A DNA stretch of 42,428 nucleotides from Bacilli bacterium. Its GTDB lineage: Bacteria > Bacillota_I > Bacilli_A > RFN20 > CAG-826. The stretch's first letter is position 1. The number at the start of each line of letters is the position of its first letter. Positions 5,611 through 39,546 of this stretch are shown here, in pieces. The notes under the pieces are model-generated. The model had not been told where the DNA came from. It saw nothing but the letters and a program-made list of their open reading frames with translations, and searched no databases. The position numbers and the translations under genes are program-made. The stretch covers positions 1-42,428 of the forward strand of contig JAGBLE010000020.1 in the NCBI GenBank assembly GCA_017635565.1, in the 5' to 3' direction.

Positions 5611-6207
5611 ATGAAGATTTTCTTTCAAGGCGACTCTATTACTGATGCTGGTAGAGATAGAAGCGATAATCACAATTTAGTGGGTTATTCACTATTAGTA
5701 AAAAACACATTAGGTGATAATTATGAATATGTAAATTACGCTTGCAGTGGTGATACATCTAGACAAGCCCTAAAAAGACATGAGGCTGAATTTGCCCGTG
5801 AAAAACCTGATATTTTGGTTTTGCTCATTGGTGTTAATGATGTTTGGCGGAATGTTGATAACATTGTTGAAAGCATGACTACAAGTGAAGAATTTATTGA
5901 TAATGTAACTAAAATTATTAATATTAGTAAAACGATTAATCCCCATGTAAAAATTATCTTTTTAGAACCATACCTTATGCCTGGTTCTTCTCAAGTATAC
6001 GAGCGTGGGCTATCTTTATATGAATATAATATTTCTTTGTTAAGAAAACATATCAAACCATTAGTGGATCAATATGTTGAATTACAAGATTATATACAAA
6101 AACATACAACCGAAGAATTTACATTCACATATGATGGTGTGCATCCAAATATAAATGGCCAACAGTATTTAGCGAAAAAAGTAGTGGACGCTATTATTGC
6201 TAAATAG
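5611..6207 (+). CDS. SGNH/GDSL-family esterase (hydrolase)
   Basis: A 198-residue cytoplasmic protein starting MKIFFQGDSITDAGRDR. Block I GDSITDAG gives the nucleophile Ser9; the oxyanion Gly lies in ACSGDTS; block III is LIGVNDVW (G-x-ND); block V DGVHPN gives Asp175 and His178. Length and blocks match small SGNH hydrolases such as carbohydrate acetylesterases. I start at ATG 5611, with TAGGAG upstream, not at the in-frame ATG 5587 that lies in the methylase remnant. It is the first gene of the glycan locus, and removing O-acetyl groups from imported sugars is the likely but unproven role. It converges with the GH29-like gene, overlapping by 8 bases. Confidence 0.85.
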   Translation: MKIFFQGDSITDAGRDRSDNHNLVGYSLLVKNTLGDNYEYVNYACSGDTSRQALKRHEAEFAREKPDILVLLIGVNDVWRNVDNIVESMTTSEEFIDNVTKIINISKTINPHVKIIFLEPYLMPGSSQVYERGLSLYEYNISLLRKHIKPLVDQYVELQDYIQKHTTEEFTFTYDGVHPNINGQQYLAKKVVDAIIAK

Positions 6208-7135
6208 TCTTTAATACTTTTTTAATTTCTTTTAATTGTTTTTGCTCGGCTTCTGGGATAGTACCATCACGATATAAGGCTATACCATAGGCAAATGTTC
6301 CACCTAATTCATTTACTTTTCTTATATAATCAATGACTTGTTCATCGGTGTACCTAGATATAACTTCGCCGGGATTTTCATGAACCCAGTTGTCATCCAT
6401 ATAGCAACATGAAAACCATTCAGAGCCACCTTCTCCAGAAAATCTTCCGTTTGGATAACGATCTAATTCATATAATTCACCAGCTTGATAATCTGAAATT
6501 CCTTTTAAATCGAATTTCCAAGGTTCTGCACCATTAATGTTAAATGCAACAATTGCATTTTTGTTTCCGCTTGTTAAGCATTCTTTATATTTTTTAAAGT
6601 CATATCTAGTGCCACATCTATTGTTATACTCAATTAAATAACAGCCATCAATCCACCAACCAGCAATACCTTCTTTATATTCGTCACTAATTGCTTTGGT
6701 GATTTTATAGCATATTTCCGCATGCTTTTGAGGATTAGAATGGAATTCACATAATTCTTGCCATTCACTATCTGTAAAACCATCTCCATTGAAATAAGCC
6801 ATGAATTCAATGCCATACGCTTTTAATTCTTCAATAATCTCTTTTAACAAGTCACGCTTAATTACTCTATTTGAAATCATTACTTCAAATTCTTTTAAAT
6901 AGAAAGGTAAAACAAAATCTGCATGATTTAATGTCATAACGACAAAATCAGCCCCCGTTTCATGCACTTGCTTTGCAAAAGTGTGGGCATCAAATTCGTC
7001 AACTGCCTTTTGATATAACTTGAATCTATTTTGAAAACAATCTGTGATGCGCTCTTTGTCATCTTTGTTTAAAGAAAATGATGTCCAACTGACAAATAAA
7101 CCATATTTTGATTGATACAAAAAATCTGTTTTCAT
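6200..7135 (-). CDS. Short GH29-like (alpha-L-fucosidase fold) enzyme
   Basis: A 311-residue protein without signal peptide. It keeps the order of GH29 motifs in divergent form: KYGLFVSW near the start (KFGIF-HWG in the family), FDAHTFAKQVHETGADFVVMT (FDA-xWA-xxAK-xAGAKY), a Lys/Arg-Asp 'VIKRDLLKEIIEELKAYGIEF' helix and GIAGWWIDG, where Asp163 sits at the family's nucleophile position (WFDG). The usual HHDGF motif is replaced by NHADF. It lacks the C-terminal beta-sandwich. It is read leftward, divergent from the AraC regulator, with AAGGAG ahead of the ATG and a good promoter. The fold is likely; alpha-L-fucosidase activity is less certain. Confidence 0.65.
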   Translation of the reverse strand: MKTDFLYQSKYGLFVSWTSFSLNKDDKERITDCFQNRFKLYQKAVDEFDAHTFAKQVHETGADFVVMTLNHADFVLPFYLKEFEVMISNRVIKRDLLKEIIEELKAYGIEFMAYFNGDGFTDSEWQELCEFHSNPQKHAEICYKITKAISDEYKEGIAGWWIDGCYLIEYNNRCGTRYDFKKYKECLTSGNKNAIVAFNINGAEPWKFDLKGISDYQAGELYELDRYPNGRFSGEGGSEWFSCCYMDDNWVHENPGEVISRYTDEQVIDYIRKVNELGGTFAYGIALYRDGTIPEAEQKQLKEIKKVLKTI

Positions 7136-15187: not shown

Positions 15188-16615
15188 ATGAAAAAAATTA
15201 ACAGCTTTCTTTTGTCTATTGGATTTATTGCGGGATTAGTTTCTTGTGCTTCTAATGGATCTGGTAACAATAATTTAGGTCCAGTTGATATTTGGGGGGC
15301 ACCAGCAACAGAAAAGATTTTGCAAGATGTTCATGGCATTTATGACAATATCCGCACCGATGCATCGATTAATATTGTCGCTGCCAAAGGTGAATATGAA
15401 TCGCAACACATTATCCTTACTTCAAAAGGAGCAAGAGCTTTTTATGAAATCGAATATTCCGAATTGAAAAGTCAAAATGGAGATATTTTTAAGAAAGAAA
15501 ATATAGATATATTCCATGAGAAATATTTGGAATTAACAAATAATTTCGATAGAACTGAAATGCCTACTGGCCGCTATCCAGACGCTCTTATCCCTTATGA
15601 TGGAATAGTGAAAGCTAAAGAGAATTATGTCGAAGCGGGATGTAATCAAGGATTATATTTCAGATTTAATGTTCCTCTCGGTCAAAAAGAAGGAACATAT
15701 ACTGGTTCAGCAAAAATAACCGTTGATGGTAATAGCTATTCTATACCCATCACTCTTGTAGTGGAAAATCTTGTTGTCAGTGAAGTAAACCACGCTAAGA
15801 GCCAATTTTTAACACGTTGGTTCCAATCAAGAGGTGAACTTGATACAACTCAAGAAATGCACGATAAATATTCTCGTTTCTTATATGAATATCGCCTTTG
15901 TGGAAGCGATCTAATTTTAGATAATTCCCATAGCAAAAAAGAAATCGATGAATACGTTGATTTAGCTTATGATCACATGCAAAATCCAAAATGTTCAACA
16001 GTTTCTATTCCCTGTAGGAAAGCTGCTGATGTTGGCTTTGATGGTAGCTCTTTAAGATCATATTTAACCGCTTTTGCTAAAAAATCTTTCGAAACCGGTT
16101 ATAACATGATGAAAAAATTAACATTTTATAATAACTATGTTGATGAGCCACAATTCTGGGGCCCTGGCGGACTTCCTGCCACTCAAACCATGTCTACGAG
16201 ATATCGTGGAGTTATTAAATCTTTAGCAGATACTTTAGCTGCCGATACCTCAATCACGGCTGCTAACAAAGATGAAGTCATAGCTTCATTAAGAGATGTA
16301 CCGAATGTCATCACATCTTGGTATGACCTTGATTATGCACCTTGGGTTGATACTTGGTGTCCAGAATTCAATCACTATGATGCGGAATATTCAAGAGCCA
16401 ATTATGATTCCCAAAAAGAAAAATGGTGGTATGGATGTATTGATCCAAAAGCACCTTATCCAACTTATCATATTGAAGATACTCTTCTTTCCGCTCGATT
16501 AGAACCTTGGATGAAAGCGGAATACGATGTCGTTGGAAGTTTATATTGGGCCACGACGGTTTATGCGGAATATGACGGCTCAAAATATAACGATATTGAA
16601 GATTACTATAGGTAG
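15188..16615 (+). CDS. GH123-type beta-N-acetylgalactosaminidase lipoprotein, 5' part of a frameshifted gene
   Basis: 475 residues from ATG 15188, preceded by AGGGGTG; the GTG at 15179 is less likely. The signal peptide ends in the lipobox LVSC (Cys20). An N-terminal beta-sandwich (about 25-205) is followed by a catalytic barrel with LTFYNNYVDEPQFWG, where Asp319-Glu320 match the D-E catalytic pair of GH123. This family hydrolyses terminal beta-GalNAc using the substrate acetamido group. The frame stops at TAG 16613-16615 just where the conserved GDG-LLYPG segment should come, and that segment continues in another frame. It is the only clearly exported glycosidase of the locus. Confidence 0.8.
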   Translation: MKKINSFLLSIGFIAGLVSCASNGSGNNNLGPVDIWGAPATEKILQDVHGIYDNIRTDASINIVAAKGEYESQHIILTSKGARAFYEIEYSELKSQNGDIFKKENIDIFHEKYLELTNNFDRTEMPTGRYPDALIPYDGIVKAKENYVEAGCNQGLYFRFNVPLGQKEGTYTGSAKITVDGNSYSIPITLVVENLVVSEVNHAKSQFLTRWFQSRGELDTTQEMHDKYSRFLYEYRLCGSDLILDNSHSKKEIDEYVDLAYDHMQNPKCSTVSIPCRKAADVGFDGSSLRSYLTAFAKKSFETGYNMMKKLTFYNNYVDEPQFWGPGGLPATQTMSTRYRGVIKSLADTLAADTSITAANKDEVIASLRDVPNVITSWYDLDYAPWVDTWCPEFNHYDAEYSRANYDSQKEKWWYGCIDPKAPYPTYHIEDTLLSARLEPWMKAEYDVVGSLYWATTVYAEYDGSKYNDIEDYYR

Positions 16616-17645
16616 TGCATCTCGTTTCCCTAGAGTTAATGGAGACGGATGGTTGTTATATCCTGGAGCCAAATATGGAATCGATGGTCCTCTTCCTTCT
16701 TTGCGCATAGAAGCAATTAGAGATGGGCTTGAAGAATATGAACTTCTTTACGCCTTGAAAAATAATTATAAAGATCTAAAAACTGCGCTTGGAGAAGAAG
16801 TTGATGTTTCTATTGATAAAATGTTTTCCCTTCTTAGATCATCTTTATATTATGGAACAAGAGTAACTGCGAAAAATGATACATTCTATGAAGCTAGGAA
16901 GGTGTTATTTGATTTGGCAAAAATAAATCAAAATACATTAACTTCTATCGTTGATTATTATGATGATTCATATGGTAATTATGTCTTTACTATTCTCGCT
17001 CCAACTGGCACAGAAATAAAGGCCAATAATATTACTTTATCACCAGAAAAGAATATTGGTGGATATAACAAATTTACTGCAGAAGTTAAATTAGATAATG
17101 ATAAAAACTACTTCAATTTAACCGCAACTAAAGATGGCAAATCTTATGATTATTCACAATATATCGGCGGTAAAGTTTTAGTTAATAATGTTTCTAATGC
17201 CAGTACTTCTGATTTCACTAAAGAAACAGTTACCCCAACCGCAACATTAATTAATGCTAATACAGTTGATGAATCTCTTACTGGTAAATTAATGCAAGTT
17301 GATGTTCCTCAATCAAATAGCAATTCTGAACAAGCATTTAGATTAAAAGGTTCATTATTAAATGGAATTGGCGAAGCGTCTTCTAAAGTTGTCTTCCATC
17401 TATACTATCAAGGAGAAGATAATTTGAAGTGCATTTTCGCTGCAAAATACATGAATAACCCCGTTTATTTTGACCTCGCTAATGTGAATTTGAAAAAAGG
17501 TATGAACAACATTGAGATTACCTTCGAAGAAAAAGATTGGTCGATTTCTGGAAACATCGAATATCTTTCCGTTTATTTAGGTGAAGGTAATGGACAACCA
17601 GCTAGAACAATTTATCTATCTGATTCAGTTGTCTATGGAAAATAA
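16527..17645 (+). CDS. GH123 gene, 3' part in the shifted frame (DUF4091 end plus a C-terminal module)
   Basis: The frame is open from 16527, but homology begins near 16606 with SASRFPRVNGDGWLLYPG and KYGIDGPLPSLRIEAIRDGLEEYELLYAL, the DUF4091-type end of GH123 barrels. From about 16950 a further beta-rich module of some 230 residues follows, perhaps carbohydrate binding. No ribosome binding site or signal peptide is seen at its own ATG, so it is almost certainly the rest of the gene that begins at 15188. The switch needs a +1 shift around TAT-AGG-TAG (16607-16615). Either the gene is broken, or the assembly has a one-base error, or frameshifting occurs. Confidence 0.75.
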   Translation: MSLEVYIGPRRFMRNMTAQNITILKITIGSASRFPRVNGDGWLLYPGAKYGIDGPLPSLRIEAIRDGLEEYELLYALKNNYKDLKTALGEEVDVSIDKMFSLLRSSLYYGTRVTAKNDTFYEARKVLFDLAKINQNTLTSIVDYYDDSYGNYVFTILAPTGTEIKANNITLSPEKNIGGYNKFTAEVKLDNDKNYFNLTATKDGKSYDYSQYIGGKVLVNNVSNASTSDFTKETVTPTATLINANTVDESLTGKLMQVDVPQSNSNSEQAFRLKGSLLNGIGEASSKVVFHLYYQGEDNLKCIFAAKYMNNPVYFDLANVNLKKGMNNIEITFEEKDWSISGNIEYLSVYLGEGNGQPARTIYLSDSVVYGK

Positions 17646-19025: not shown

Positions 19026-21887
19026 ATGAAAAAGAGAAGTATTATTACAACAATTTCTGCAGTTGTTCTCGCAATGGCCACTGTTACATTAGCAGGATGT
19101 GCTGGTAACAATAATAAAAGCGGAACAACACAAGAATCCACTTCTGTTGTTGACTCAGTCACATTGGTTGACTTTGATAATATAACAGCTACTGTGGAAC
19201 TTGGCAGCACGTATTCTTTGCCAAACATTGCAACGGATACCAATGGAAAAGATTATCAAGTAGTATATAGTGCTACTGATGAATCTGGTCAAGCAGTTGC
19301 TGTTAATAAAAACAGCTTTGTAGCAAGTAAAACTGGAGTATTTACTATTACTGCTAAAGTTGCATTTAGTGATGGCAAATCTGCTAGCCGTACAATTACC
19401 TTGACGGTTAACGACACAACCGCTCCAACTGTTACTATTGGAAAAGTTAAAACTGGTTATATAGGCGTTGCCTATAAATTACCAACAGTCACTTACGAAG
19501 ATGTTTCGGGGGATTGTGAATTAAATGTCAAAGTCTTTTTAACTGGAACTGGCGAAAAAGAAATCACAGTTGAAAACAATCAATTTACACCAACTGAAGC
19601 CGGTAATTACGAAGTTAGAGCCACCGCCAAAGATGCTTCTGGAAATATCGGAAGAGAAACCAAAGCCTTTGTGGTTAAAGCCGAAAAAGATCCTGCAGCT
19701 CCTGAAGAAGTTATTGATTTTAATGATGAAGATGAAACTTGTGTTAGAAAGAATCCAGCCAGAGATGCGGCGTATACTTTTGAAATTCTTGATGAATTTG
19801 AAAATGAAGAAGGTGTTTTAAAAGTTACAACATCTGATGACTGCACAACTATCATTCTTAATCAAATGGCTCATGAGAAATCACATTATGCCGAATATGA
19901 TAATGTTATCTTTAGAATGTTCATTCCATCAGATAAACGTGTCCATCATATGCACATGAATTCTGAAACCAGCCAAAAATCTTATTATGATCTTGATGGT
20001 TCAGTTTCTCAAATCGTTTATGATGAATGGCATGATTATAAGTTTGAAGCTAGCGCATTATTAAATACCGCTAATGATATTTATCCAAATATCTTCCTTT
20101 ATACTTATGAAGCTAAAGAAAGTTCACTTTATATCGCTGATATTAGTGTTGAAAAAGTAGCTCAAGTAAGCATTGCTTCCCCAGCTACCGGAACTGTTGG
20201 TGAAGAATACACCTTGCCAGAAGTTACTACTAAAAACTTTATTGGTACGCCAACCATTGATATGAAATTATATTTACTTGGCGAAGGCGGAAGCGAAACA
20301 GAAGTGACAATTACTAATGGAAAATTCACTCCATCAGTTGCTGGACAATATCTCATTAGAGTTACCGTTTCCGATGAAGCTGGAAATGTTGTTACTAAGA
20401 CAGCTGAATTTACAGTTACTGAAGTTGTCGATGTCATTAGAGAAAATGAAGTTATCGACTTTGATGAAAAGAGCGATATGAACCTCGTTGATGATGGTGG
20501 TAGACCAGCCGGAAGAAATGAACTTACTTGGTTAGAATCTTATGAAGGTGAAACAGGTGTCTTAAAACTCCATACCATGGATGATCAAAGCCGTTTCAGA
20601 ATCAATGAAATGGCTCATGAAAAGGCCGATTATGCCGACTATAGTTATGTCGTATTCACAATGTTTATTGATTTAGGTGAAAAACCAAGTTATCACCATA
20701 TGTGGATGAATGCTGCTGAAGTCGGCGAATCTTATTATGACAATGGCAGTGGTTTAGGAAAACTTGTTTACGGAAAATGGGTTGAATATGGATTCCCAAT
20801 TGCTAGATTAACTGAAGTTGATGCTCCATACATTAGTTTCTATAATGAACATTTTGAAAGATGGGCAGATATTTATGTTTCTGATGTTAGAGTAACAAAA
20901 GGACTTCCTCCAGTTGATGTAAGAACTGATGAAGTCAATGGATTTAACAGAGAATCCAATATTGATCTCATTTCGTTTGGCGCAAGAGTAGCAGACGGAA
21001 GAAATGAATTTAGTTGGTTAGAAACATTTGAAAACGAATATGGTGTCTTAAAACTCCATACTTGCGATGATAACCCAATGATTCAATTAGAAGGATTCGT
21101 CAATGACAAAGAAGCTTTAAGTGCTTATGACAAAATTATCTTCAAAATGTTTGTAGATAAAGGCGAAAAACCAAGTATCCATCACATTTGGATGAATAAT
21201 GTTGAAGGTGAATCATATAGAGATGATGGTGGTTCTTTAGGTCAACTCGTTTATGGTGAATGGGTTGAACTTTCCTTCCCAATCGCTAGATTAACCGAAG
21301 CTGAAAAACCCGCTCTTAGATTCTATTGCGAACCTTATGGTAGTTGGGCCAATATCTATGTCGCTGATATTAGAGTGGAAATGTTACCAACTGATCCAGC
21401 AAAACCTGATGAAGTCATTGATTTTGATGAAGAAGTTGATTTGATGAATGTTACTTATGGTGATAGACCATCTGATAGAGCAGAAGATCCTGTTTGGCTT
21501 GATAATTATGAAGGTGAACAAGGTGTCTTAAAAGTCCGCACTATGGACGATAATCCAAGAATTAGAGTCACCTCTTACGCCAATGAATTCGATGCTTATT
21601 CTGGTTATCAATATGTCGTTGTTAGAATGTGGCTTGAACACAAAGGTACAAACGACCTTCACCACATTTATCTTAATGAAGAAGCTGGCGATATGTACTA
21701 CTTCAATGGCGGTGGAGCCGGACAAATCTATTATGAACAATGGGTTGATTATAGTTTCCCAATCTCTGAGTTAAGAGAGGGTGGATTTGAAGTCCGTATC
21801 TATAACGATAATTACGGATCATGGGCAAATATTTATATTTCTGATATTAGAGTAACAAATGAAAGACCTGCATTAATCGCAGAATAG
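19026..21887 (+). CDS. Large surface lipoprotein with Ig-like domains and four tandem jelly-roll-like repeats
   Basis: A 953-residue lipoprotein; signal peptide with lipobox LAGC (Cys25), AAAGGAGA ahead of the ATG. Two Ig-like domains (about 40-115 and 119-220) are followed by repeat 1 (229-378), a third Ig-like domain (379-475, EVTTKNFIGTPTIDMKLYL) and repeats 2, 3 and 4 (476-953). Each repeat is about 150-160 residues and shares VIDFDE at the start, a VLKLHTMDD strand, a YVVFTMF strand, HHMWMN, GKLVYGKWVEYGFPIARL and a closing WADIYVSDVRVT. This is the architecture of a multivalent binding protein. No enzymatic motif is visible. It is encoded between the import genes and the hydrolases, so glycan capture is likely (inference). 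Confidence 0.8.
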   Translation: MKKRSIITTISAVVLAMATVTLAGCAGNNNKSGTTQESTSVVDSVTLVDFDNITATVELGSTYSLPNIATDTNGKDYQVVYSATDESGQAVAVNKNSFVASKTGVFTITAKVAFSDGKSASRTITLTVNDTTAPTVTIGKVKTGYIGVAYKLPTVTYEDVSGDCELNVKVFLTGTGEKEITVENNQFTPTEAGNYEVRATAKDASGNIGRETKAFVVKAEKDPAAPEEVIDFNDEDETCVRKNPARDAAYTFEILDEFENEEGVLKVTTSDDCTTIILNQMAHEKSHYAEYDNVIFRMFIPSDKRVHHMHMNSETSQKSYYDLDGSVSQIVYDEWHDYKFEASALLNTANDIYPNIFLYTYEAKESSLYIADISVEKVAQVSIASPATGTVGEEYTLPEVTTKNFIGTPTIDMKLYLLGEGGSETEVTITNGKFTPSVAGQYLIRVTVSDEAGNVVTKTAEFTVTEVVDVIRENEVIDFDEKSDMNLVDDGGRPAGRNELTWLESYEGETGVLKLHTMDDQSRFRINEMAHEKADYADYSYVVFTMFIDLGEKPSYHHMWMNAAEVGESYYDNGSGLGKLVYGKWVEYGFPIARLTEVDAPYISFYNEHFERWADIYVSDVRVTKGLPPVDVRTDEVNGFNRESNIDLISFGARVADGRNEFSWLETFENEYGVLKLHTCDDNPMIQLEGFVNDKEALSAYDKIIFKMFVDKGEKPSIHHIWMNNVEGESYRDDGGSLGQLVYGEWVELSFPIARLTEAEKPALRFYCEPYGSWANIYVADIRVEMLPTDPAKPDEVIDFDEEVDLMNVTYGDRPSDRAEDPVWLDNYEGEQGVLKVRTMDDNPRIRVTSYANEFDAYSGYQYVVVRMWLEHKGTNDLHHIYLNEEAGDMYYFNGGGAGQIYYEQWVDYSFPISELREGGFEVRIYNDNYGSWANIYISDIRVTNERPALIAE
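19710..21870 (+). repeat. Four coding repeats (about 150-160 codons each) in the large lipoprotein
   Basis: Units begin near 19710, 20451, 20934 and 21414. The last three are spaced 483 and 480 bases apart; the first is separated by an Ig-like domain. Units 2 and 3 are most alike at protein level (for example the shared FPIARLTE segment), suggesting the newest duplication. DNA identity is too low for simple recent copying. Confidence 0.75.
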
Positions 21888-25715: not shown

Positions 25716-26447
25716 ATGCCAAAATTAACAATCGAAAATTTAAAAGTTATTTATAATAATAAAAAAGGGCAAGAAACCATTGCTCTTGATGGTTTTAGTT
25801 ATAGTTTTAATGAAGGTTCTTTGCACGCAATTATTGGATTTTCTGGTTGTGGTAAAACCACTCTATTAAGAGCGATATTGGGATTTGTTGATTACCAGGG
25901 AAAAATATTATTCGATAATGTTGATGCTATTGATTTAACAACCCAGGAAAGAAATATTTCTTATGTTTCTCAACAATATATTTTATATCCTCATTTAACA
26001 ATATTTGATAATATTGCTTCCCCCTTAAAAATCGCAAAAGCTCCAAAAGAAGAAATAAAAGAAAGAGTAAAAGCTGTTGCTCAATATCTAGGGATTGAGC
26101 ATTGCTTAACAAGAAAGCCAAGACACCTTTCTGGTGGTCAACAACAAAAAGTTGCATTAGCAAGAGCGATTATTAAAAAATCACAGCTCTATTTATTTGA
26201 TGAGCCTTTATCAAATTTTGATAAACAAGGAAGAAGCGAAGTTAGATTGATGATTAAAAAATTCATCAAAGAAAATAACGTCACTGCTTTATATGTGACC
26301 CACGATTTCCAAGAAGCGATGACAATTGCGGATAATATTGTGGTTATTAATAATGGTAAAGTTATTGCTTCTGGTAGTCCTAAAGAAATTTATGAATCAA
26401 AAAACCCAATTGTTAATCAACTGAAATGTGGTGTTAATGATGAATGA
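25716..26447 (+). CDS. ABC transporter ATP-binding protein (short, no TOBE domain)
   Basis: A 243-residue ATPase. Walker A is GFSGCGKTT, the Q-loop SYVSQQYILYPHLTI, the signature HLSGGQQQKVALARAI, Walker B LYLFDEPLSNFD, and the H-loop YVTHDFQEAM. It resembles the nucleotide-binding half of MalK/UgpC proteins but stops after the PKEIYES segment, lacking the C-terminal TOBE/OB regulatory fold. It starts 3 bases after the GH95 gene and overlaps the next membrane protein gene. It could energise the CUT1 permeases here or, with the three membrane proteins that follow, form a separate complex. Confidence 0.9.
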   Translation: MPKLTIENLKVIYNNKKGQETIALDGFSYSFNEGSLHAIIGFSGCGKTTLLRAILGFVDYQGKILFDNVDAIDLTTQERNISYVSQQYILYPHLTIFDNIASPLKIAKAPKEEIKERVKAVAQYLGIEHCLTRKPRHLSGGQQQKVALARAIIKKSQLYLFDEPLSNFDKQGRSEVRLMIKKFIKENNVTALYVTHDFQEAMTIADNIVVINNGKVIASGSPKEIYESKNPIVNQLKCGVNDE

Positions 26448-26943
26448 TATTTATTCATTGGAATATATAAATAAACTCTCAAAAACTAAGGCAAAATCAA
26501 TCGTGGCTTTTATATTGATTATTGTTTCATCTATCTCATTGAATATTGGGCTTCTTTTTTTGACTAACCAAAGCAATAAAATCATTATGATTATTGTTCT
26601 TTCACTAATATTTACATTAGCGGCATGGTTTGCCATATGGTTATTAATTGAAGGAATACTATTTACTAGTAAGAAAATAGAATTCATAAAAAACCTTTTT
26701 AATAGTGAATCTAAATTAATTAATGGTCGAGTTATTGAAATAAAAAAACCTATCACATTTTCTAAAGCAATAAGGTGTTATGCGGTTATTATTGATAGTG
26801 GACAATCAACAGATCAAATAATATATGTCGATGAAATGATAGGCGCTTTGCCTATTAAAAAAGAAGATAATGTACAGTTTTTAATATCAAAGAACTTTGC
26901 TATCCAGTATGAGGTTTTAAAAGATGATGAAGAAAAACTTTAA
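26437..26943 (+). CDS. Membrane protein of unknown function, two TM segments, 168 aa
   Basis: Starts at ATG 26437 or 26440 inside the end of the ABC gene; the frame also has GTG codons at 26428 and 26431. Two hydrophobic helices (about residues 20-42 and 50-75: AFILIIVSSISLNIGLLFL and a following IIVLSLIFTLAAWFAIWLL region) are followed by a soluble C-terminal domain with short strands (KLINGRVIEIKKPITFSK, then DQIIYVDEMIGALP). I do not recognise a family. Overlap with both neighbours shows it belongs to the ATPase module. Confidence 0.65.
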   Translation: MMNDIYSLEYINKLSKTKAKSIVAFILIIVSSISLNIGLLFLTNQSNKIIMIIVLSLIFTLAAWFAIWLLIEGILFTSKKIEFIKNLFNSESKLINGRVIEIKKPITFSKAIRCYAVIIDSGQSTDQIIYVDEMIGALPIKKEDNVQFLISKNFAIQYEVLKDDEEKL

Positions 26944-27520
26944 GAATCACATTTCTGGGTATTGGTTTTTATATGTTATCGCGGCTGTGATATCTGCGAT
27001 TCTTTGGAGTACTGTGGTTATTTTCTGGACTAAAGACAAAAAAGAAGAAGTGGTGTCTGTGTGGATTATGGCCTACGACGCTAAAGTAGGGGAATTAACA
27101 AATGAACTTGAAAATGAAAAACAAGAATATTTGAAACACATCAGATTAACTTTTAATAATTATGAAAATGAATTAACTAAAATCTCTTTTGATGGTTTAG
27201 GAAGCAATTATGATTTAGCTATCCTACCAGAAAGTTTTTTATCAAAAGTTGCTGTACAAAGAATATATACAAAATTAGATAGTAATCTTGTGGATACCAT
27301 TTTAGGTGAGCAAATCTATTACCAAATGGATGAATATAATTATGGTATAGAAATTTTTAATAAAAGCGATGATGATAACGGATTAATCACTTATACAAAA
27401 GAAGGAATCGAACCGGAAAATTATTACATTTTTATAAACAAAAATTCTTTACATATGGGTGAGATAAATAATAGTAAACATGATGGCGGAATATCTATTA
27501 TAAAGACATTATTAAAGTAA
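26924..27520 (+). CDS. Membrane-anchored protein with extracytoplasmic domain, 198 aa
   Basis: One N-terminal hydrophobic helix (about 13-36, WFLYVIAAVISAILWSTVVI) is preceded by basic residues, so the remaining 160 residues should face outside. The exposed part has SNYDLAILPESFL and a late ENYYIFINKNSLHMGE, phrasing that faintly recalls lobes of solute-binding proteins, but it is far too short to be one. The gene overlaps its upstream neighbour by 20 bases and the next follows after 2 bases. The family is unknown; a transporter accessory subunit is a guess from context. Confidence 0.6.
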   Translation: MMKKNFKNHISGYWFLYVIAAVISAILWSTVVIFWTKDKKEEVVSVWIMAYDAKVGELTNELENEKQEYLKHIRLTFNNYENELTKISFDGLGSNYDLAILPESFLSKVAVQRIYTKLDSNLVDTILGEQIYYQMDEYNYGIEIFNKSDDDNGLITYTKEGIEPENYYIFINKNSLHMGEINNSKHDGGISIIKTLLK

Positions 27521-27522
27521 TT

Positions 27523-28365
27523 ATGAAGACAAAAAAAGCGAAAAACGATTTTTTACAATCTGACCTTCCTTCTAATAGAAAAGAAGTGTTTTTTGACTCT
27601 ATCAAATTAAGATATGGTCTTATTTTTAAGATTGGTTTGATGATGCTTTTATTTTCCTTACCGCTTCTTGTCGTTTTGTTTTTTAAAGATTCTTATCTAA
27701 TTTCCATTGAATCTTCCTTATCTAAAGGAAGTATTAGTCAGGAATCTTATAACGAAATGTATAAGATGATTTGTCGAATTGCTTATGCGGTATGTGTTCC
27801 TTGTTTTGTGATATTTTCCATTGGTTTAGCGGGTTCTTTGCGTGTAATACGTCAACTAGCCTGGGGAGAAGGGGTATTTTTCATACAAGATTTCTTAGAC
27901 GGAATAAAAGCCAATTATAAACATTATTTGATATATTCTTTGTTGTTTGGCGTTATGCATTATTTAGGAAGAATGGCAATTCTTATTGATATTGATTTGA
28001 CTTTTATTAAAGTTTTGCCGTTGATCATTATTTTATCGGTTTTTTTACCAGTTATGCTTTTTGGAATATTTCAGTCACAAATCTACACAAATAAGATATG
28101 GCAAGAACTTAAAAATGGTGCAATATTATATATCAAAACTTTCTTTACGACTTTTTTAGCGCTTATCATTATCTGTATTCCCATCGCTTTTGCGTTTATT
28201 AACCTTTTCTTTATAAAAATGTTAGTGATGATTTTATATTTTGTATTTGTTGTTCCATTTATTCTATTGGGAGAGTTTTTATATTTTAATAGTGTTTTTG
28301 ATAAATATATCAACAAGAACAATTACCCAGATATATACGGAAAAGGAATTAATAATAAAATCTAA
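27523..28365 (+). CDS. YesL-like (DUF624-type) integral membrane protein
   Basis: A 280-residue protein with about five or six hydrophobic helices. The segment IGLAGSLRVIRQLAWGEGVFFIQDFLDGIKANYKHY resembles the conserved core of YesL/DUF624 proteins (GLAG-xx-x-xRxL, E-x-VF-xxDF-xx-IK-N), which are found beside CUT1 sugar transporters and whose function is unclear. It is the last gene of the first transcript; an AT-rich stretch follows with no clear terminator, then the promoter at 28401-28441. The call rests on the motif and context. Confidence 0.65.
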   Translation: MKTKKAKNDFLQSDLPSNRKEVFFDSIKLRYGLIFKIGLMMLLFSLPLLVVLFFKDSYLISIESSLSKGSISQESYNEMYKMICRIAYAVCVPCFVIFSIGLAGSLRVIRQLAWGEGVFFIQDFLDGIKANYKHYLIYSLLFGVMHYLGRMAILIDIDLTFIKVLPLIIILSVFLPVMLFGIFQSQIYTNKIWQELKNGAILYIKTFFTTFLALIIICIPIAFAFINLFFIKMLVMILYFVFVVPFILLGEFLYFNSVFDKYINKNNYPDIYGKGINNKI

Positions 28366-30034: not shown

Positions 30035-31243
30035 ATGGAATTTGAATACATCAAAAAATTTAAAAAAATGGGTTTAGGACTTTTTGTCCACCTTGGTTTA
30101 TATAGCATTTTTCAAAAAGGAGAATGGTATTATAGTGTCCTTAATACAGAGGAACAAAGACAAGACTATTTCTCGAATATCAAAAAGTTTAAAATAGCGA
30201 AATCGTGGGCAAAGGATATTGTTGGCACTGCTAAAAAGCTCGGCGCTAAATACATTACTATTGGAACAAGACATCATGAAGGTTTCTCTCTTTTTGATAC
30301 CCATGGATTAACCGATTTTGATGTGATGCATTCTCCTACTAAAAGAGATCTTATGCAAGAGTTTGTTGAAGAATGTCGTAAAAATGATATCGTTCCATTT
30401 TTCTATCACACTCTTCTTGATTGGCATAACAAAGATTTCAATGATAATTTCCCAAAATACATTGATTACTTAATTGCGTCAGTGGAATTATTATGCAAAA
30501 ACTATGGCAAAATAGGAGGATTTTGGTTTGATGGGTTCTGGTCAAAGCCATACGAAAATTGGCAATTTGATCGTCTTTACGGAATGATTCGTAAATATCA
30601 ACCAGAGGCCATGATTATTAATAACACAGGGCTAGATGAAAGAGGAAAAGTGGGTCACTATGAAATTGATAGTGTTACTTTTGAAAGAGGTAAGCCATTT
30701 GATGTTTCTTCTGAAGACGGAAAAGAAAGAGCTGGTGAAGTATGTAATAGCCTTACCGATCATTGGGGCAACACTAAATTAGATTTAAATTACCTTAGCG
30801 TTCCTTATTTAATTGATTTATTGATTGATTGCCGATATAACGGATGCAATTTACTCATCAACGGAGGCGTTGATAAAAATGGTAAAATGAAAAGCATGGA
30901 TAAAGCAACTTTACAAATGTTTGGTATATGGGTTCATAAGCATGAGCATATTATTAGAGATTGCAAACCGAGCAAAATCACCGCTGATAACGCTTTAATA
31001 TTTGAAGATGGAAAATATTATTATGCCGTTATTAAAAACGTTCCTTTAATCGCGACTTTAAATGTCGTGGAGGCCAAATCATTACCTCGTATCACCATTC
31101 ATTCTGACAAAAAGGTAATTGAAGCTTGTTGCTATGATGATAAAAAAGCCAAAATTAAAATTGAAAAGAATTCATTCGCTATGCCTGCTTTCCCTTATGG
31201 TGTGAGCATGTGCGCTAGAATTGTAAGATTTAAATTAAAATAA
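30035..31243 (+). CDS. GH29 alpha-L-fucosidase
   Basis: A 402-residue protein lacking a signal peptide. Family marks in order: KMGLGLFVHLGLYSI with GEWYY, SWAKDIVGTAKKLGAKYITIGTRHHEGFSLFDT (KHHDGF region), SPTKRDLMQEFVEECRKNDIVPFFYHTLLDWH, and IGGFWFDGFW, where Asp166 is the expected nucleophile. DSVTFERG and CNLLINGGVDKNGKM follow as in the family. It has a short C-terminal beta domain and would hydrolyse alpha-L-fucosides in the cytoplasm. AGGGGAT precedes the ATG 15 bases after the ATPase gene. Together with the GH95 and GH29-like genes it makes fucosylated glycans the best guess for the locus substrate. Confidence 0.9.
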   Translation: MEFEYIKKFKKMGLGLFVHLGLYSIFQKGEWYYSVLNTEEQRQDYFSNIKKFKIAKSWAKDIVGTAKKLGAKYITIGTRHHEGFSLFDTHGLTDFDVMHSPTKRDLMQEFVEECRKNDIVPFFYHTLLDWHNKDFNDNFPKYIDYLIASVELLCKNYGKIGGFWFDGFWSKPYENWQFDRLYGMIRKYQPEAMIINNTGLDERGKVGHYEIDSVTFERGKPFDVSSEDGKERAGEVCNSLTDHWGNTKLDLNYLSVPYLIDLLIDCRYNGCNLLINGGVDKNGKMKSMDKATLQMFGIWVHKHEHIIRDCKPSKITADNALIFEDGKYYYAVIKNVPLIATLNVVEAKSLPRITIHSDKKVIEACCYDDKKAKIKIEKNSFAMPAFPYGVSMCARIVRFKLK

Positions 31244-31440: not shown

Positions 31441-32499
31441 ATGAGTAATGAATTGATGCTAATTTTAAAATCATTTGATATATCAAGCGAATTAATTGAA
31501 TGTGCTCCTTTAGGTAACGGACATATCAATTCCACCTTTTTAGTGTGTGTGGATAATAAAAAATATGTTCTCCAAAAGATTAATAATTACGTTTTTAAAG
31601 ACGTTGATTTATTAATGAACAATTACTATAAAGTCACTGAATATCTTTATAAAAACAAAATCGAAACGATCCATTTAATTAAGGCTAATGACGAAAAACC
31701 ATATTTAAAAATAGGTGATGATTATTATCGTCTATATGAATATATTGATAACGCCATTTGGCATGAAGAGATTAGCAATCTTGAATTAGTTTATGAAGCC
31801 GCGAAAGCTTTTGGCCAATTTCATAAAACACTCAAAGGATTCAACGCTAAAGAACTGGGTGAAGTTATTCCTAATTTCCATAATACATATCAAAGATATG
31901 TTAATTTGCTGAACGCCATCAAAGAAGATAAAATGGATAGAGTAAAAGATTGCCTACCAGAAATTAAAATTGTTAATTCATTCGAGCAAGATTATAACAT
32001 TATTACTACTGCGATTAATGCTGGGTTAATTCCACTTGCTGTGACTCATAATGATCCGAAGATTAATAATGTTTTATTTGATAAAAATAGTGGTGATATA
32101 AGAGCGGTTATTGACTTAGATACAGTGATGCCAGGTAGTTATTTATATGATTTTGGTGACGCTTTAAGAAGTTTATTCACTGGAGATAATGAAGATAGTG
32201 AAGACTTATCAAAACTAAAAGTCAATTTTGATGTGTTTGAAACATACGCTAAAGGTTACTTAAGTGAGATGAAAAACGTTCTAACCAAAAGAGAAATAGA
32301 ATTATTGCCTTTTTCAGCTTTCTTATTAACCATCGAATGTGGAATTAGGTTTTTAGAAGATTATATCCGTGGCGATGTTTATTTTAGAATTAAAAAGCCA
32401 AATCACAATCTCATTAGGGCAAGAACCCAATTAACGCTCGCAAAAGACATTTATAAAAATTTAGATAAATTGAATGATATCATAGATAAACTTGTGTGA
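31441..32499 (+). CDS. nahK: NahK-like N-acetylhexosamine 1-kinase
   Basis: A 352-residue aminoglycoside-phosphotransferase-fold kinase. The match to bifidobacterial NahK (LnpB), from memory, is strong along the length: [57 protein letters not shown] (catalytic Asp205), [23 protein letters not shown] and the near-identical end [39 protein letters not shown]. NahK phosphorylates GlcNAc or GalNAc at C1, feeding UDP-HexNAc or glycolysis. In bifidobacteria it works with GH112 phosphorylase; none is here, but a GH94 phosphorylase is. The binding site AAAGGTG is weak. Confidence 0.88.
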   Translation: [352 protein letters not shown]

Positions 32500-32508
32500 G
32501 GATATAGT

Positions 32509-33333
32509 ATGAAACTCAATAAAGGAAACATTTATTTACCAAAAAATAGAAAATCTCAACCAGTCAAATGGCTTTGTATTTGTGCGCATCAAGATGATTG
32601 TGAAATCATGGCGATTGATGGAATTTTAAAAGGATATTATTCCAAAAAATATTCTTTTGCTTTAGTGGAGACAACGGATGGTGGAGGTTCTGCGAGAACT
32701 GGTAAATTCGCAAATTACACAGATGATGAAATGAAGCAAGTCCGTATCAAAGAGCAACAAGCTGCTTCTGAAGTTGGAAAATACAATTCTCTTTATATGC
32801 TCGACTATTCTTCAAAAGAAGTTAAAGATAGAAATAATGATGATATAGTCGCTGACTATGTGAACATCATTAAAGAATTAAAACCACAAGTTATCTATAC
32901 ACATTCCATATTAGATAAACATCCAACCCATATTGGTGTGGTCCTTAAGGTTATTAAAGCCTTAAGAAGTCTCCCAAAAGAAGAACAACCAAAATTATTC
33001 TATGGTTGTGAAGTTTGGAGAGGTTTAGATTGGATCTCCGATGAAAGAAAGATTGGCTTTGATGTATCTAGGAATGAAAGACTACAAAAGAAAATATTAG
33101 ATGTTTTTGAATCTCAAATCGCAGGTGGTAAAGCTTATACAAAAGCTTCAATAGGCAGAAGATATCAAAATGCGACTTATTTCCAATCTCATAGTGTGGA
33201 TTCATTCAAGATGATATCTTATGCGATTGATATGAAACCATTATTAAAGAATCCTCAATTAAGTGTTAAAGAATTTGCTTTGTCTTTTGTTGATGATTTA
33301 AGAAATGAAATCAGTGAATTAATTGGAGAATAA
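32509..33333 (+). CDS. PIG-L/LmbE-family zinc-dependent N-deacetylase
   Basis: A 274-residue protein with no signal peptide. The metal-binding motif CAHQDDCEIMAIDGIL (His27, Asp30; family AH-x-DD) and a second motif, LDKHPTHIGVV (His138-His141 region), place it in the PIG-L/LmbE family (CE14), which removes acetyl groups from GlcNAc-containing molecules. It lies 9 bases after NahK with GAGGATAT before the ATG. It likely acts on a free or phosphorylated HexNAc or small HexNAc glycan made by the locus hydrolases. The exact substrate cannot be read from sequence. Confidence 0.85.
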   Translation: MKLNKGNIYLPKNRKSQPVKWLCICAHQDDCEIMAIDGILKGYYSKKYSFALVETTDGGGSARTGKFANYTDDEMKQVRIKEQQAASEVGKYNSLYMLDYSSKEVKDRNNDDIVADYVNIIKELKPQVIYTHSILDKHPTHIGVVLKVIKALRSLPKEEQPKLFYGCEVWRGLDWISDERKIGFDVSRNERLQKKILDVFESQIAGGKAYTKASIGRRYQNATYFQSHSVDSFKMISYAIDMKPLLKNPQLSVKEFALSFVDDLRNEISELIGE

Positions 33334-33334
33334 A

Positions 33335-34282
33335 ATGTTTGCTCTTGGAATTGACATCGGTGGTACCTCAATTAAAGGTGGAATAGTTAACAATAAAGGA
33401 AAACTATTCGATACTTTTAAGATGCCTGTCACCAAAGATGAAAACCAAGATAAAACAGTTAAAAAACTGATTCGCTTAGTTAAGAGATTTCTTAAAGAAT
33501 ACCACTACAAAAACGAAGATATTATTGGTGTTGGATGTGGTGTTCCTGGAATTATTGACTCCACAAATGGAATTGTAACATTCTCTGGTAATTTAAAATG
33601 GCACAATTTCGCATTAAAGAGAGTATTAGAAGAAGGTTTGGGGTTTCCAGTTAAAATTACTAATGACGCGAACGCAGCTGCCTTAGCAGAGGCAAAATAT
33701 GGTTCAGGCAGTAAATATAAATCATTTCTAATGGTCACTCTAGGTACTGGAATAGGTAGTGGTATCTTTGTTGATGGAAAACTATATGAGGGTAATTTAG
33801 GAAAAGGTGCTGAGTTTGGCCATTCCCTTTTAGTAATGGATGGTAGACAATGCGCATGTGGAAGAAAAGGATGCCTAGAAGCTTATGCTTCTGCTACAGC
33901 TTTAGTTAAAGATACTAGAGCCATGATGGAATTTCATAAAGACTCTTTATTGTGGAAAGTCAGCGAAGAACTTGGTAGTGTAAACGCTAGAGTGCCTTTT
34001 ATTGCTGCCAGAGAAGGCGACAAATACGCAATTGAACTTGTTGATATGTATGTAAAATATCTCTCAGAAGGACTTATTAATTATTTCAATACATTTAGAC
34101 CAGAAGCTGTTATTCTTTCAGGTGGAATAGCTGAAGAAGGCGAGTTTTTGATATCAAAGATTAGAAACTACTGTCAGACTCACGATTATGGTTTAAAAAT
34201 GTGTCCTTCTGTGGATATAGTTAAATCATCCGTTGGATACGATTCTGGTAAAATTGGTGCAGCAGCCTTATTTTTTGATTAA
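33335..34282 (+). CDS. ROK-family sugar kinase
   Basis: A 315-residue protein starting MFALGIDIGGTSIKGGIV. The phosphate-binding motif is DIGGTSIKGG; GVGCGVPGIID, ITNDANAAALAEA and LGTGIGSGIFVDGKL follow; the ROK zinc motif is GRQCACGRKGCLE with the upstream His in EFGHSLL. It may phosphorylate glucose, GlcNAc or ManNAc at C6, and no HTH domain precedes it, so it is an enzyme rather than a repressor. ATG 33335 is preferred over the TTG at 33323 because GGAG lies 9 bases upstream; it starts one base after the deacetylase stop. Last gene of the glycan locus. It may also serve as the general glucokinase. Confidence 0.9.
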   Translation: MFALGIDIGGTSIKGGIVNNKGKLFDTFKMPVTKDENQDKTVKKLIRLVKRFLKEYHYKNEDIIGVGCGVPGIIDSTNGIVTFSGNLKWHNFALKRVLEEGLGFPVKITNDANAAALAEAKYGSGSKYKSFLMVTLGTGIGSGIFVDGKLYEGNLGKGAEFGHSLLVMDGRQCACGRKGCLEAYASATALVKDTRAMMEFHKDSLLWKVSEELGSVNARVPFIAAREGDKYAIELVDMYVKYLSEGLINYFNTFRPEAVILSGGIAEEGEFLISKIRNYCQTHDYGLKMCPSVDIVKSSVGYDSGKIGAAALFFD

Positions 34283-34302
34283 TCTATTCGCTTAACAATA
34301 GA

Positions 34303-34323
34303 TGTGCGAGGGTTTAACCCTCG
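34303..34323 (+). terminator. Inverted repeat after the ROK gene, possible terminator
   Basis: CGAGGGTT (34307-34314) and AACCCTCG (34316-34323) form a perfect inverted repeat just after the kinase gene, extendable by G-U pairs. A T-run (GTTTTT) begins only 11 bases later. A second, weaker hairpin (AGGGGTT with AACCCT) follows near 34342-34363. Its left arm shares 12 bases with the tRNA-Ser T-arm in opposite orientation. Confidence 0.4.
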
Positions 34324-34424
34324 TGTCTGTCCAGTTTTTATAAGGGGTTTAAAGAGTAACCCTATATGACTCTCAACCAGGTGTCCTAGAAATAGTAAAT
34401 ATGTTAAAAATCTTCAAAAAGTAA

Positions 34425-34452
34425 GAAAAAACACGCACTTTTTCGTACGTGT
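34425..34452 (-). terminator. Rho-independent terminator of tRNA-Ser
   Basis: On the minus strand ACACGTAC pairs with GTGCGTGT (8 bp, one G-U) around GAAAAA, followed by a run of six T. It lies 16 bases downstream of the encoded CCA end. Confidence 0.85.
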
Positions 34453-34467
34453 CTCGACAATCGATGA

Positions 34468-34558
34468 TGGCGGAGGAAGAGGGATTTGAACCCTCGCACA
34501 CTGTTACATGTCTACGAGCTTTCCAAGCCCGCCCCTTCAGCCTCTTGGGTATTCCTCC
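34468..34558 (-). tRNA. tRNA-Ser (anticodon GGA)
   Basis: Read on the minus strand the gene starts GGAGGAATACCCAAGAGGC and has a 7-bp acceptor stem (GGAGGAA with TTCCTCC), U8, a D-arm with AAGAGGCTGAAGGGG, and an anticodon arm CGGGC-TTGGAAA-GCTCG with GGA at positions 34-36. A long class II variable arm, a T-arm with GGTTCAAATCC, discriminator G and an encoded CCA complete it. The long variable arm and the anticodon both fit serine (codons UCC/UCU). It has its own promoter and terminator on the minus strand, between the glycan locus and the housekeeping block. Confidence 0.97.
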
Positions 34559-34592
34559 GTATGGCTGAACAATATTTGAACGTGCGAATAGT

Positions 34593-34620
34593 ATTATAAC
34601 AAAAAATTTAAATTAGTCAC
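34593..34620 (-). promoter_or_regulatory. Promoter of tRNA-Ser
   Basis: Minus strand: -35 GTGACT (34620-34615), 16-bp spacer, perfect -10 TATAAT (34598-34593). The tRNA begins at 34558. Confidence 0.7.
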
Positions 34621-34651
34621 TCTTTATTTAATAAAATAATTTTTTTACAAT

Positions 34652-35641
34652 ATGAATATGCGAATATTCAAGGTTCATCAAAGCGAAGAAGGACAGACAT
34701 TAGAGAAGTATATTCAAAAACTCCTTATGTCCGCTCCATCATCCTTTATATATAAAATATTTAGGAAAAAAGATGTTAAAGTTAACGGTCATCATGAAGA
34801 CCGTAGATTTAAATTATCTGAAAATGATGAAGTCGCAATATATATTACCGAAGATCAATTTAATGATTTTCTAAAAGAAAAAGCCTATCAACCTAATAAC
34901 AATATTAAAGATTGGATTATCTATGAGGATGATAATGTTTTATTCATTAATAAACCAAGAGGCTTATTGGTGCAAAAGAGTAAACCACAAGATGAATCAT
35001 TAGATCAAATGGTCGTGGAGTATCTTATCTATAAGGGTGAATATAACCCAGAAAAAGAAATCGCTTTCAAACCAGGCCCTGCTCATCGATTAGATAGAAA
35101 TACTTCTGGTATTGTGGCTTTTGGTAAAAACCATCAAACATTAGAACTATTATTTGAACTATTTAAGAATCACGATTTAATTAATAAACATTATCTTGCT
35201 TTAGTAGTGGGCCAAATGGAAAAAGATAAAGATAGTATCAATGTCCCACTCAAAAAAGATGAAAAGAATAATACAGTGACTGTCGCTCCTTTGAATAAAG
35301 GAGGAAAAACCGCTAAAACGGTTTATAAAGTCATCAAAAAGTATCAAGACTATAGTTTATTAGATGTCACTCTTTTAACTGGTAGAACACATCAAATCAG
35401 AGTGCATCTTGCTTATATTAATCATCCAATTATCGGGGATGAAAAATATGGTGACTTTACCGCTAATAGAATCTTCAAACAACAATATGGTTTTAATAAA
35501 CAATTCTTACATGCCTATAAGATTGGTTTTGGTGATTTACCAGCCCCTTTAACCAACTTAAGTAAAAAAGAATTCACCGCTGAACCTAACGAAGAAATTG
35601 CAAATATCCTAACTAAGTTAGACAATATAGATAGGGAGTAA
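34652..35641 (+). CDS. RluC/RluD-family 23S rRNA pseudouridine synthase
   Basis: A 329-residue protein. An S4-like RNA-binding domain (about 1-75; FIYKIFRKKDVKVNG) precedes the catalytic domain with IIYEDDNVLFINKPRGLLVQ, HRLDRNTSGIVAFGK (catalytic Asp in RLD), NKHYLALVVG, TGRTHQIRVHLAYINHPIIGDEKYG. This is the RluA-class fold of RluC/RluD enzymes that isomerise uridines in 23S rRNA. Starts possible at ATG 34652 or 34658; neither has a Shine-Dalgarno sequence, the upstream being AT-rich (TTTTTTACAAT). It is followed 5 bases later by the sugar mutase gene, which has GGGAG upstream. Confidence 0.92.
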   Translation: MNMRIFKVHQSEEGQTLEKYIQKLLMSAPSSFIYKIFRKKDVKVNGHHEDRRFKLSENDEVAIYITEDQFNDFLKEKAYQPNNNIKDWIIYEDDNVLFINKPRGLLVQKSKPQDESLDQMVVEYLIYKGEYNPEKEIAFKPGPAHRLDRNTSGIVAFGKNHQTLELLFELFKNHDLINKHYLALVVGQMEKDKDSINVPLKKDEKNNTVTVAPLNKGGKTAKTVYKVIKKYQDYSLLDVTLLTGRTHQIRVHLAYINHPIIGDEKYGDFTANRIFKQQYGFNKQFLHAYKIGFGDLPAPLTNLSKKEFTAEPNEEIANILTKLDNIDRE

Positions 35642-35646
35642 ACTTT

Positions 35647-37347
35647 ATGAGCACAAAAGAAAATTATTTACGCTGGCTTAATTCAGCTAAAGTTAGTGAA
35701 CAAGATAAAGAAATCTTGAGAAAGATGGATCAAAAAGAAATTGATGATGCTTTCTTTAAAGATGTTGAATTTGGTACCGCAGGCATGAGAGGTGTTCTTG
35801 GACCAGGTACTAATAGACTTAATAACTTCACAGTGAAAAAGGCCACTGTGGCGTTTGCTAAATACCTATTAGAACTATTCCCAAACGCTAAGCAAGAAGG
35901 TGTAGTAATTTCTCACGATAATAGACACATGTCGCGCGAATTTACTCTTTTAAGCGCTGAAACATTAAATGATTTTGGTATTAAAACATACATCTTTGAT
36001 GCTTTAAGACCAACTCCTGAATTATCATTCGCTGTCCGCTATCTTAAAGCCTGCGCTGGTATTATGATTACCGCTAGCCATAACCCAAAACAATATAATG
36101 GCTATAAAGTATATGACGAAACGGGTTGTCAATTAGTCCCAGATAAAATCAAACGCTTATTAGAAATCATTGCTTCTTTACCAAATGAATTAGAAGTGGA
36201 ATATGAAGTGGCAAAACAAAGAGGGGAAAATATCCTCTTAGATAATAAAGTTGATGATGAATATGTTAGATTAGTGGAATCTATTGCGATTAATAAGGAT
36301 TTAGATAAATCTAACTTCAAAGTGGTCTTCACTCCTAACCACGGTACATCCTATGTTAATTCCATGAGAATCTTTAAAGATTTAGGCTATCGGATTTATC
36401 CAGTTATGAGCCAAGTTGACCCAGACCCAGATTTCTCTGGTACATTATCTCCTAACCCAGAAGACGCTAGATCATTTATTGAACCAATTAAACTCGCTAA
36501 AGAGATTGACGCTGACTTAATTGTTATGACTGACCCTGATGGTGACCGTGTTGGTTTAGGCTATAAAGCAAAAGATGGAAGTTATCAAACATTAACTGGT
36601 AACCAAAGTGCAGCTTTATTAATGGACTATATCTTCTCCCAAAAGAAAGAAAAAGGTACATTAAGTGATAATGGTGTCATGTATTACACAATTGTTACCT
36701 CCTCCTTAGGGGGAGACATCGCTAGACACTATGGTGTTAAAGTCGAAGAATTCTTAACAGGTTTTAAATTCATTGGTAATCGTATTGATTATTATGAAAA
36801 ACTTGGCCATGGTCCAAAGTTTGAATTTGGTTATGAAGAAAGCTATGGTTGCTTAATCGCTCCATTTGCGAGAGACAAAGATGGTTGCCAAGCAATCTTG
36901 ATGTACTGTGAAATGGCGTTGTTCTATTTCTTAAAAGGTATGAGATTAGATGAAGCTTGGGATGACTTATGCAAACGCTTCGGTTATCACCAAGATATCA
37001 CCTACTCTATGGAATTCTTCGGTAGTGAAGGTCAAGCCAAGATGAATAACCTCATGAATACCTTACATAACGACCCATTTATCTCCATCAACGGCTTAAA
37101 AGTGGTGAAGGTTGATGATATTGAAAAAGGTGAAAGAATTACCAAAGATAAAAAAGAACCACTTAACTTACCAAAATCTAATGTTGTTAAACTTTATTTA
37201 GAAGATGGTAGTGTGGTCACTGTTAGACCAAGTGGTACTGAACCAAAAGTTAAATTCTATGTTGGTACAGTCTTAAAGGAAAAGCCAGTTGATAATTCTT
37301 TCCCAGATGCTTTATTCAAGAGTATCAAAGAAACATTGCACTTGTAA
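35647..37347 (+). CDS. Phosphoglucomutase/phosphomannomutase (PgcA-type)
   Basis: A 566-residue alpha-D-phosphohexomutase. Motifs: substrate-proximal EFGTAGMRGVLGPGTNRLN, the phosphoserine loop ITASHNPKQYNGYKVY, the metal loop MTDPDGDRVGLG, the sugar-binding GYEESYGCL and the phosphate-binding TVRPSGTEPKVKFY. Length and order fit bacillary PgcA, which interconverts glucose 1- and 6-phosphate. It could also process hexose 1-phosphate released by the GH94 phosphorylase upstream, though it lies outside that locus and behind a tRNA. It is in an operon with the pseudouridine synthase and ends at a hairpin terminator. Confidence 0.95.
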   Translation: MSTKENYLRWLNSAKVSEQDKEILRKMDQKEIDDAFFKDVEFGTAGMRGVLGPGTNRLNNFTVKKATVAFAKYLLELFPNAKQEGVVISHDNRHMSREFTLLSAETLNDFGIKTYIFDALRPTPELSFAVRYLKACAGIMITASHNPKQYNGYKVYDETGCQLVPDKIKRLLEIIASLPNELEVEYEVAKQRGENILLDNKVDDEYVRLVESIAINKDLDKSNFKVVFTPNHGTSYVNSMRIFKDLGYRIYPVMSQVDPDPDFSGTLSPNPEDARSFIEPIKLAKEIDADLIVMTDPDGDRVGLGYKAKDGSYQTLTGNQSAALLMDYIFSQKKEKGTLSDNGVMYYTIVTSSLGGDIARHYGVKVEEFLTGFKFIGNRIDYYEKLGHGPKFEFGYEESYGCLIAPFARDKDGCQAILMYCEMALFYFLKGMRLDEAWDDLCKRFGYHQDITYSMEFFGSEGQAKMNNLMNTLHNDPFISINGLKVVKVDDIEKGERITKDKKEPLNLPKSNVVKLYLEDGSVVTVRPSGTEPKVKFYVGTVLKEKPVDNSFPDALFKSIKETLHL

Positions 37348-37352
37348 AAAAG

Positions 37353-37378
37353 ACCAAGGATTCAATCCTTGGTTTTCT
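37353..37378. terminator. Bidirectional terminator between the mutase and trpS
   Basis: ACCAAGGA (37353-37360) pairs with TCCTTGGT (37366-37373) around TTCAA, with T-rich sequence to the right and an A-run (37346-37351) to the left, so it can end both converging transcripts. Confidence 0.85.
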
Positions 37379-38365: not shown

Positions 38366-38388
38366 AATATTATCCGCCTTGCTTATCT

Positions 38389-38417
38389 AGTTTAGTCTTA
38401 TACGAGACTAATTTCAA
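38389..38417 (-). promoter_or_regulatory. trpS promoter with an inverted repeat in the spacer
   Basis: Minus strand: -35 TTGAAA (38417-38412), 17-bp spacer, -10 TAAACT (38394-38389). TTAGTCT (38392-38398) and AGACTAA (38405-38411) form an inverted repeat lying between and across the boxes, a possible operator. Confidence 0.5.
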
Positions 38418-38428
38418 ATATATATTAT

Positions 38429-38456
38429 TTGTTTTCTTGAAGAAAATCGTTATACT
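38429..38456 (+). promoter_or_regulatory. spx promoter, likely leaderless
   Basis: -35 TTGTTT (38429-38434), 16-bp spacer, -10 TATACT (38451-38456; 5 of 6). The start point would be near 38463, two bases before the ATG at 38465, and there is no Shine-Dalgarno sequence, so a leaderless or nearly leaderless mRNA is expected. Confidence 0.55.
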
Positions 38457-38464
38457 ATCAACGT

Positions 38465-38899: not shown

Positions 38900-38917
38900 T
38901 TGTTATTAAGCTTTTTT
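38894..38917 (+). terminator. Rho-independent terminator overlapping the spx stop
   Basis: GCTTAAT (38894-38900) pairs with ATTAAGC (38905-38911) around TGTT, followed by TTTTTT. It overlaps the last codons of both convergent genes. Confidence 0.8.
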
Positions 38918-39507: not shown

Positions 39508-39530
39508 TTCTTTTTCCAAACTTTTAGACT

Positions 39531-39539
39531 ATTATATCA
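39531..39539 (-). promoter_or_regulatory. Extended -10 promoter for the CYTH gene in a 39-bp divergent gap
   Basis: Minus strand TGA-TATAAT (39539-39531), a perfect extended -10; start near 39524 and ATG at 39507. On the plus strand TATTAT (39530-39535) could serve the EIIB-like gene at 39547, again with almost no leader. Confidence 0.45.
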
Positions 39540-39546
39540 TAAGGTT

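Follow-up and report, generated by a model that had tools for sequence, protein, structure and literature searches.

A small complex indel as the probable cause of a split GH123/DUF4091-type gene in a metagenomic contig of gut Bacilli

The locus considered here raises the question of why a gene that reads as a single enzyme should be spread over two reading frames. In the window, that is, the whole stretch of 42,428 nucleotides that was analysed, a predicted beta-N-acetylgalactosaminidase gene of the GH123/DUF4091 type spans about 15188-17645 on the forward strand. The frame opened by the ATG at 15188 (a GTG at 15179 is the start given for the same frame in the mechanical ORF list) terminates at a TAG at 16613-16615, preceded by TAT at 16607-16609 and AGG at 16610-16612. 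The +1 frame, open from 16527 to 17645, encodes NGDGWLLYPG at 16638-16667 (+), a segment that is conserved in homologues and absent from the truncated product. A sequence-only reading of this DNA had placed the end of the GH123 frame at this TAG, ahead of an NGDG-LLYPG segment continuing in the +1 frame, and had named three candidate causes, namely an event of recent date, faulty assembly and recoding.

The frames, the translation and the Pfam searches all confirmed that the gene is divided in this manner. The 5' part (15188-16615, +) comprises a lipoprotein-like signal, the N-terminal beta-sandwich domain and most of the barrel, and the search of this part found the GH123 N-terminal domain (PF22680, 31.7 bits) and showed that the last 50 positions of the catalytic profile were missing. 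Indeed, the truncated product scored 21.5 bits against GH123_cat (PF13320), for which the cut-off is 23.1 bits, and covered profile positions 174-273 of 324. The 3' part (16611-17645, +), which aligns to homologues from the junction residue G onward and encodes the final stretch of the catalytic domain plus the C-terminal region, gave no match when searched alone against Pfam. On the other hand, an allele that is open across the junction, found in the metagenome-assembled genome (MAG) RGIG9223 and described below, passed the cut-off with 48.4 bits over profile positions 174-323. Since the junction-open allele scores higher and is matched practically to the end of the profile, what the split takes away is the terminal portion of a single conserved domain, and a chance arrangement of frames does not account for it.

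The key piece of information came from a scan of genome contigs, which identified JAGBLL010000079.1, a contig of 24,714 bases from the MAG Bacilli bacterium RGIG9223, of water deer rumen; contig C64 of genome G202, identical to it in sequence, was taken as the same record. The two contigs have 24.2 kb in common, with window positions 1638-21853 at 99.955% identity and the match continuing to 25869, and outside the region of a repeat-containing gene they differ at four sites only. Three of them are single substitutions: C/T at 6682, in a GH29-like gene (Glu to Lys), C/T at 20659, changing Thr to Ile, and A/T at 17088, changing Lys to a stop in RGIG9223. The fourth is the junction itself, where RGIG9223 reads TAT TCT GGT AGT (Y-S-G-S) in one open frame, as opposed to TAT A GGT AGT in the window. 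This makes the lesion a complex indel replacing three bases by one, TCT by A (the single A at 16610, +), with a net change of -2. This result contradicted the view of the shift as a one-base insertion, given that the window has two bases fewer plus one substitution. It also disposed of the suggestion that AGG followed by TAG recalls a "slow codon plus stop" site for +1 shifting, because both AGG and the in-frame TAG were made by the lesion: the TAG at 16613-16615 (+) is not an in-frame codon in the unshifted allele. The two halves had also been described as undamaged elsewhere, which is true of the window; RGIG9223, however, carries a different stop further downstream, a premature TAA at L005 7903-7905, where the window has AAA (17088-17090, +). 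The RGIG9223 ORF ends there, so that neither copy is full length, and this second, different stop suggests that the gene may be decaying in the population.

More distant relatives tell the same story about the junction. All nine further homologues (L002, L006, L007, L010, L011, L014, L015, L018 and L019) cross it in one frame that ends, in the alignment, in [N/A/Y]GDG-x(1-4)-YPG. The closest independent one, L006, is 54% identical over the first part of the gene and reads DYYGGSASRFPNVNGDG where the RGIG9223 allele reads DYYSGSASRFPRVNGDG, which indicates that the lost codon was part of the ancestral frame and fixes the ancestral spacing. A conserved shift at the junction was sought in RGIG9223 and the nine homologues, and none was found, each having one continuous frame. 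The sequence-only reading had named relatives with neither a shift nor a pattern at this position as grounds for refutation, and the near-identical copy (99.95% over 20 kb) and the nine homologues all lack the shift; of the three causes initially offered, recoding failed on this ground, while a recent event and an assembly error both stood.

All these observations can be integrated by assuming that a disrupting complex indel has produced a loss-of-function allele, an overall explanation to which we assign a probability of roughly 60%. According to this model, the bacterium, an uncultured gut inhabitant of Bacilli type, would have a GH123/DUF4091-type gene of a glycan-utilisation locus disrupted by the replacement of TCT by A. 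Translation would end at the TAG at 16613, and the resulting product of 475 residues would keep the DE motif but be deprived of the final stretch of the catalytic domain and of the C-terminal region. The pattern in hand is that of a disrupting lesion in the window and an unshifted allele in a close relative, RGIG9223. The site itself has no special feature beyond the disrupting difference, whether this arose by mutation or as an artefact.

Between these two origins, we infer that the change is probably present in cells rather than made by the assembler. The lesion is the sole indel in the 24.2 kb compared with RGIG9223, the repeat region aside, which makes a generally indel-prone consensus unlikely and favours a real allele. 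The site lies outside homopolymers and simple repeats, and the separate premature TAA in RGIG9223 is what would be expected if selection on the gene were relaxed. The gene accounts for about a tenth of the DNA in common and contains two of the four differences (P about 0.05); this clustering is only marginally above chance, a hint and no more. The sole near-identical comparison is itself a MAG whose gene is also not full length, and in the family- and order-wide searches near-identical copies amounted to one independent comparison only.

The strongest competing explanation is that assembly or consensus building introduced a local error into the window contig, the gene of the living strain being intact or otherwise broken, and we consider it a real, if lesser, possibility. 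The window contig belongs to a fragmented genome (31 contigs, 73% complete), and short reads from a single population may give two assemblies that disagree; the RGIG assemblies, including the RGIG9223 contig, were built with MEGAHIT or IDBA-UD from 150-base Illumina reads (PMC8199421). Assembly differences do arise nearby, as the adjacent repeat region is unlike in the two contigs and the neighbouring repeat gene encodes 953 aa in the window versus 1113 aa in RGIG9223. Against such an error, a three-for-one replacement outside homopolymers is an atypical consensus error, and again this is a single indel within 24.2 kb, repeats aside. The repeat gene, which encodes a secreted protein and lies at 19026-21887, shows a difference in repeat number that could be real or due to assembly.

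The assignment of the contig to its genome deserves a separate remark. Window positions 1638-25869 are 99.95% identical to the G202 contig, which belongs to a genome of another genus, and positions 32174-42428 (encoding RNase J, TyrRS and Maf) are only 86% identical to a different G202 contig, C108. The RNase J of the window is 92% identical to that of G202 and 78% to that of G042, both of genus g25, compared with about 67-70% to those of the window's own genus, g1. The window contig was probably misbinned in its genome (G000), and C64 may have been misbinned in G202, or the locus may have moved recently.

A further step would be to assume that the shifted allele is real and present at appreciable frequency and that, together with the RGIG9223 stop, it reflects the repeated loss of a secreted, predicted GalNAc-releasing enzyme from a glycan-utilisation locus that is otherwise intact, which in gut Bacilli would amount to a "cheater" pattern around a shared enzyme. 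This extension of the model appears unlikely.

Programmed +1 (or -2) frameshifting, fusing both frames into one protein, is highly improbable. In its favour, the two frames are both of considerable length and conserved on either side of the junction, and AGG, with a stop next to it, is a minor codon, accounting for 15 of the 278 Arg codons in 18 ORFs of the window. However, the AGG-TAG site is missing from the near-identical allele and from every homologue examined, and none of the expected accompaniments was detected: there are no Shine-Dalgarno-like sequences within 40 bases upstream, the predicted fold of the 81-base stretch that begins at the stop is on a par with shuffled sequence (z = 0.49), an Rfam search gave no match, and the tRNA re-pairings required (TAT to ATA, AGG to GGT) would be poor by established pairing rules. 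No classical slippery site was found at the junction, as already noted in the sequence-only reading.

Equally improbable is that the TAG is decoded as an amino acid, or that the halves are two subunits produced through a restart. TAG is a normal stop in the window, closing 8 of the 18 ORFs counted, and readthrough would remain in the wrong frame and meet the next stop five codons later. An ATG at 16527 does open a downstream ORF of 372 aa, but initiation there would add 28 wrong-frame residues and was judged unlikely; no in-frame restart was found near the junction, and the first +1-frame start past it is a TTG within NGDGWLLYPG. Recoding, reassignment of TAG and restart are thus effectively excluded for practical purposes. 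Two other candidates were also rejected, namely phase variation by repeat slippage (there is no simple repeat at the site, and a three-for-one change is not revertible by slippage) and copying of the new bases from a template, as TATAGGTAG occurs once more, inverted, near 18004, at an estimated chance level in 42 kb of AT-rich DNA.

As for the product that would remain, its sequence VDEP (16139-16150, +; residues 318-321), located 5' of the lesion, is the candidate DE motif, as it aligns with the conserved DE of homologues; in the enzymes described in PMC11087588 this motif supplies the Asp that stabilises the acetamido group and the acid/base Glu. The segment missing from the truncated product reads NGDGWLLYPGAKYGIDGPLPSLR. 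In the related NgaLy, two conserved residues, Y466 and R478, form bonds with D95 in the N-terminal domain and are described as important for the integrity of the structure (PMC11087588); judging by spacing, their counterparts here may be, in our inference, the Tyr in LLYPG and the Arg in PSLR. By this analogy, the loss of both residues would leave a 475-residue product that is probably misfolded or inactive.

The identity of the enzyme can be refined to some extent. Its best relatives of solved structure are 8k2f (E 1.5e-23) and 8k2j (E 4.6e-21), annotated as oligosaccharide-releasing beta-N-acetylgalactosaminidases, while the GH123 structures 5l7v and 5l7r rank lower (about E 2e-4). Groups 1-4 of PMC11087588 include 8k2f and 8k2j, and GH123 sensu stricto is represented by NgaP, CpNga123 and BvGH123. 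Judging from sequence similarity, the window enzyme would be nearer to the oligosaccharide-releasing enzymes of that work than to GH123 sensu stricto, and the GH123 label is thus approximate.

The surroundings fit a role in glycan use. Two sugar ABC-transporter permeases and a solute-binding protein are encoded upstream of the GH123-type gene, and the surrounding genes specify GH94-, GH20C-, GH95- and GH29-like enzymes, a Gfo/Idh/MocA oxidoreductase, a MalK-type ATPase and a ROK protein; by its gene content, this appears to be a host-glycan utilisation locus. One GH29-like protein (6200-7135, reverse strand) has 311 aa, begins at about position 82 of the 345-position profile and is only about 27% identical to a second one at 30035-31243, possibly being a divergent short form. 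After the GH95 gene, four small genes in successive overlapping frames (25716-28365) encode an ABC ATPase followed by three products of 171, 198 and 280 aa that show hardly any match to known families; these overlaps look like translational coupling and not like frameshifts.

The immediate consequence is that the suspicious AGG-TAG, as a product of the lesion, is dropped as a candidate recoding site. If the lesions in both near-identical loci are real, the gene has been lost more than once within one population, and such repeated loss, if true, would be modestly interesting with regard to the ecology of host-glycan use. If they are not, the case illustrates that frameshifts seen in a single metagenome contig call for comparison with a second assembly.

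Programmed +1 frameshift sites are exemplified by CUU-UGA-C in prfB and CUU-AGG-C in Ty1. The window junction resembles them in that the shift point coincides with a slow codon or a stop and the frames are related by +1, and differs in that it has no conserved site, no slippage-competent P-site codon and no stimulator, and its relatives do not have the site. With the GH123/DUF4091 beta-N-acetylgalactosaminidases, the window gene shares the N-terminal beta-sandwich, the barrel, the DE motif and the NGDG..LYPG...SLR segment, the difference being that the window copy is split. Finally, frameshifted pseudogenes or loss-of-function alleles have the same features as those seen here, namely a small indel, a stop soon after it, unshifted close relatives and a second lesion elsewhere; apart from the complex nature of the window indel, three bases for one, nothing in this comparison is unusual.
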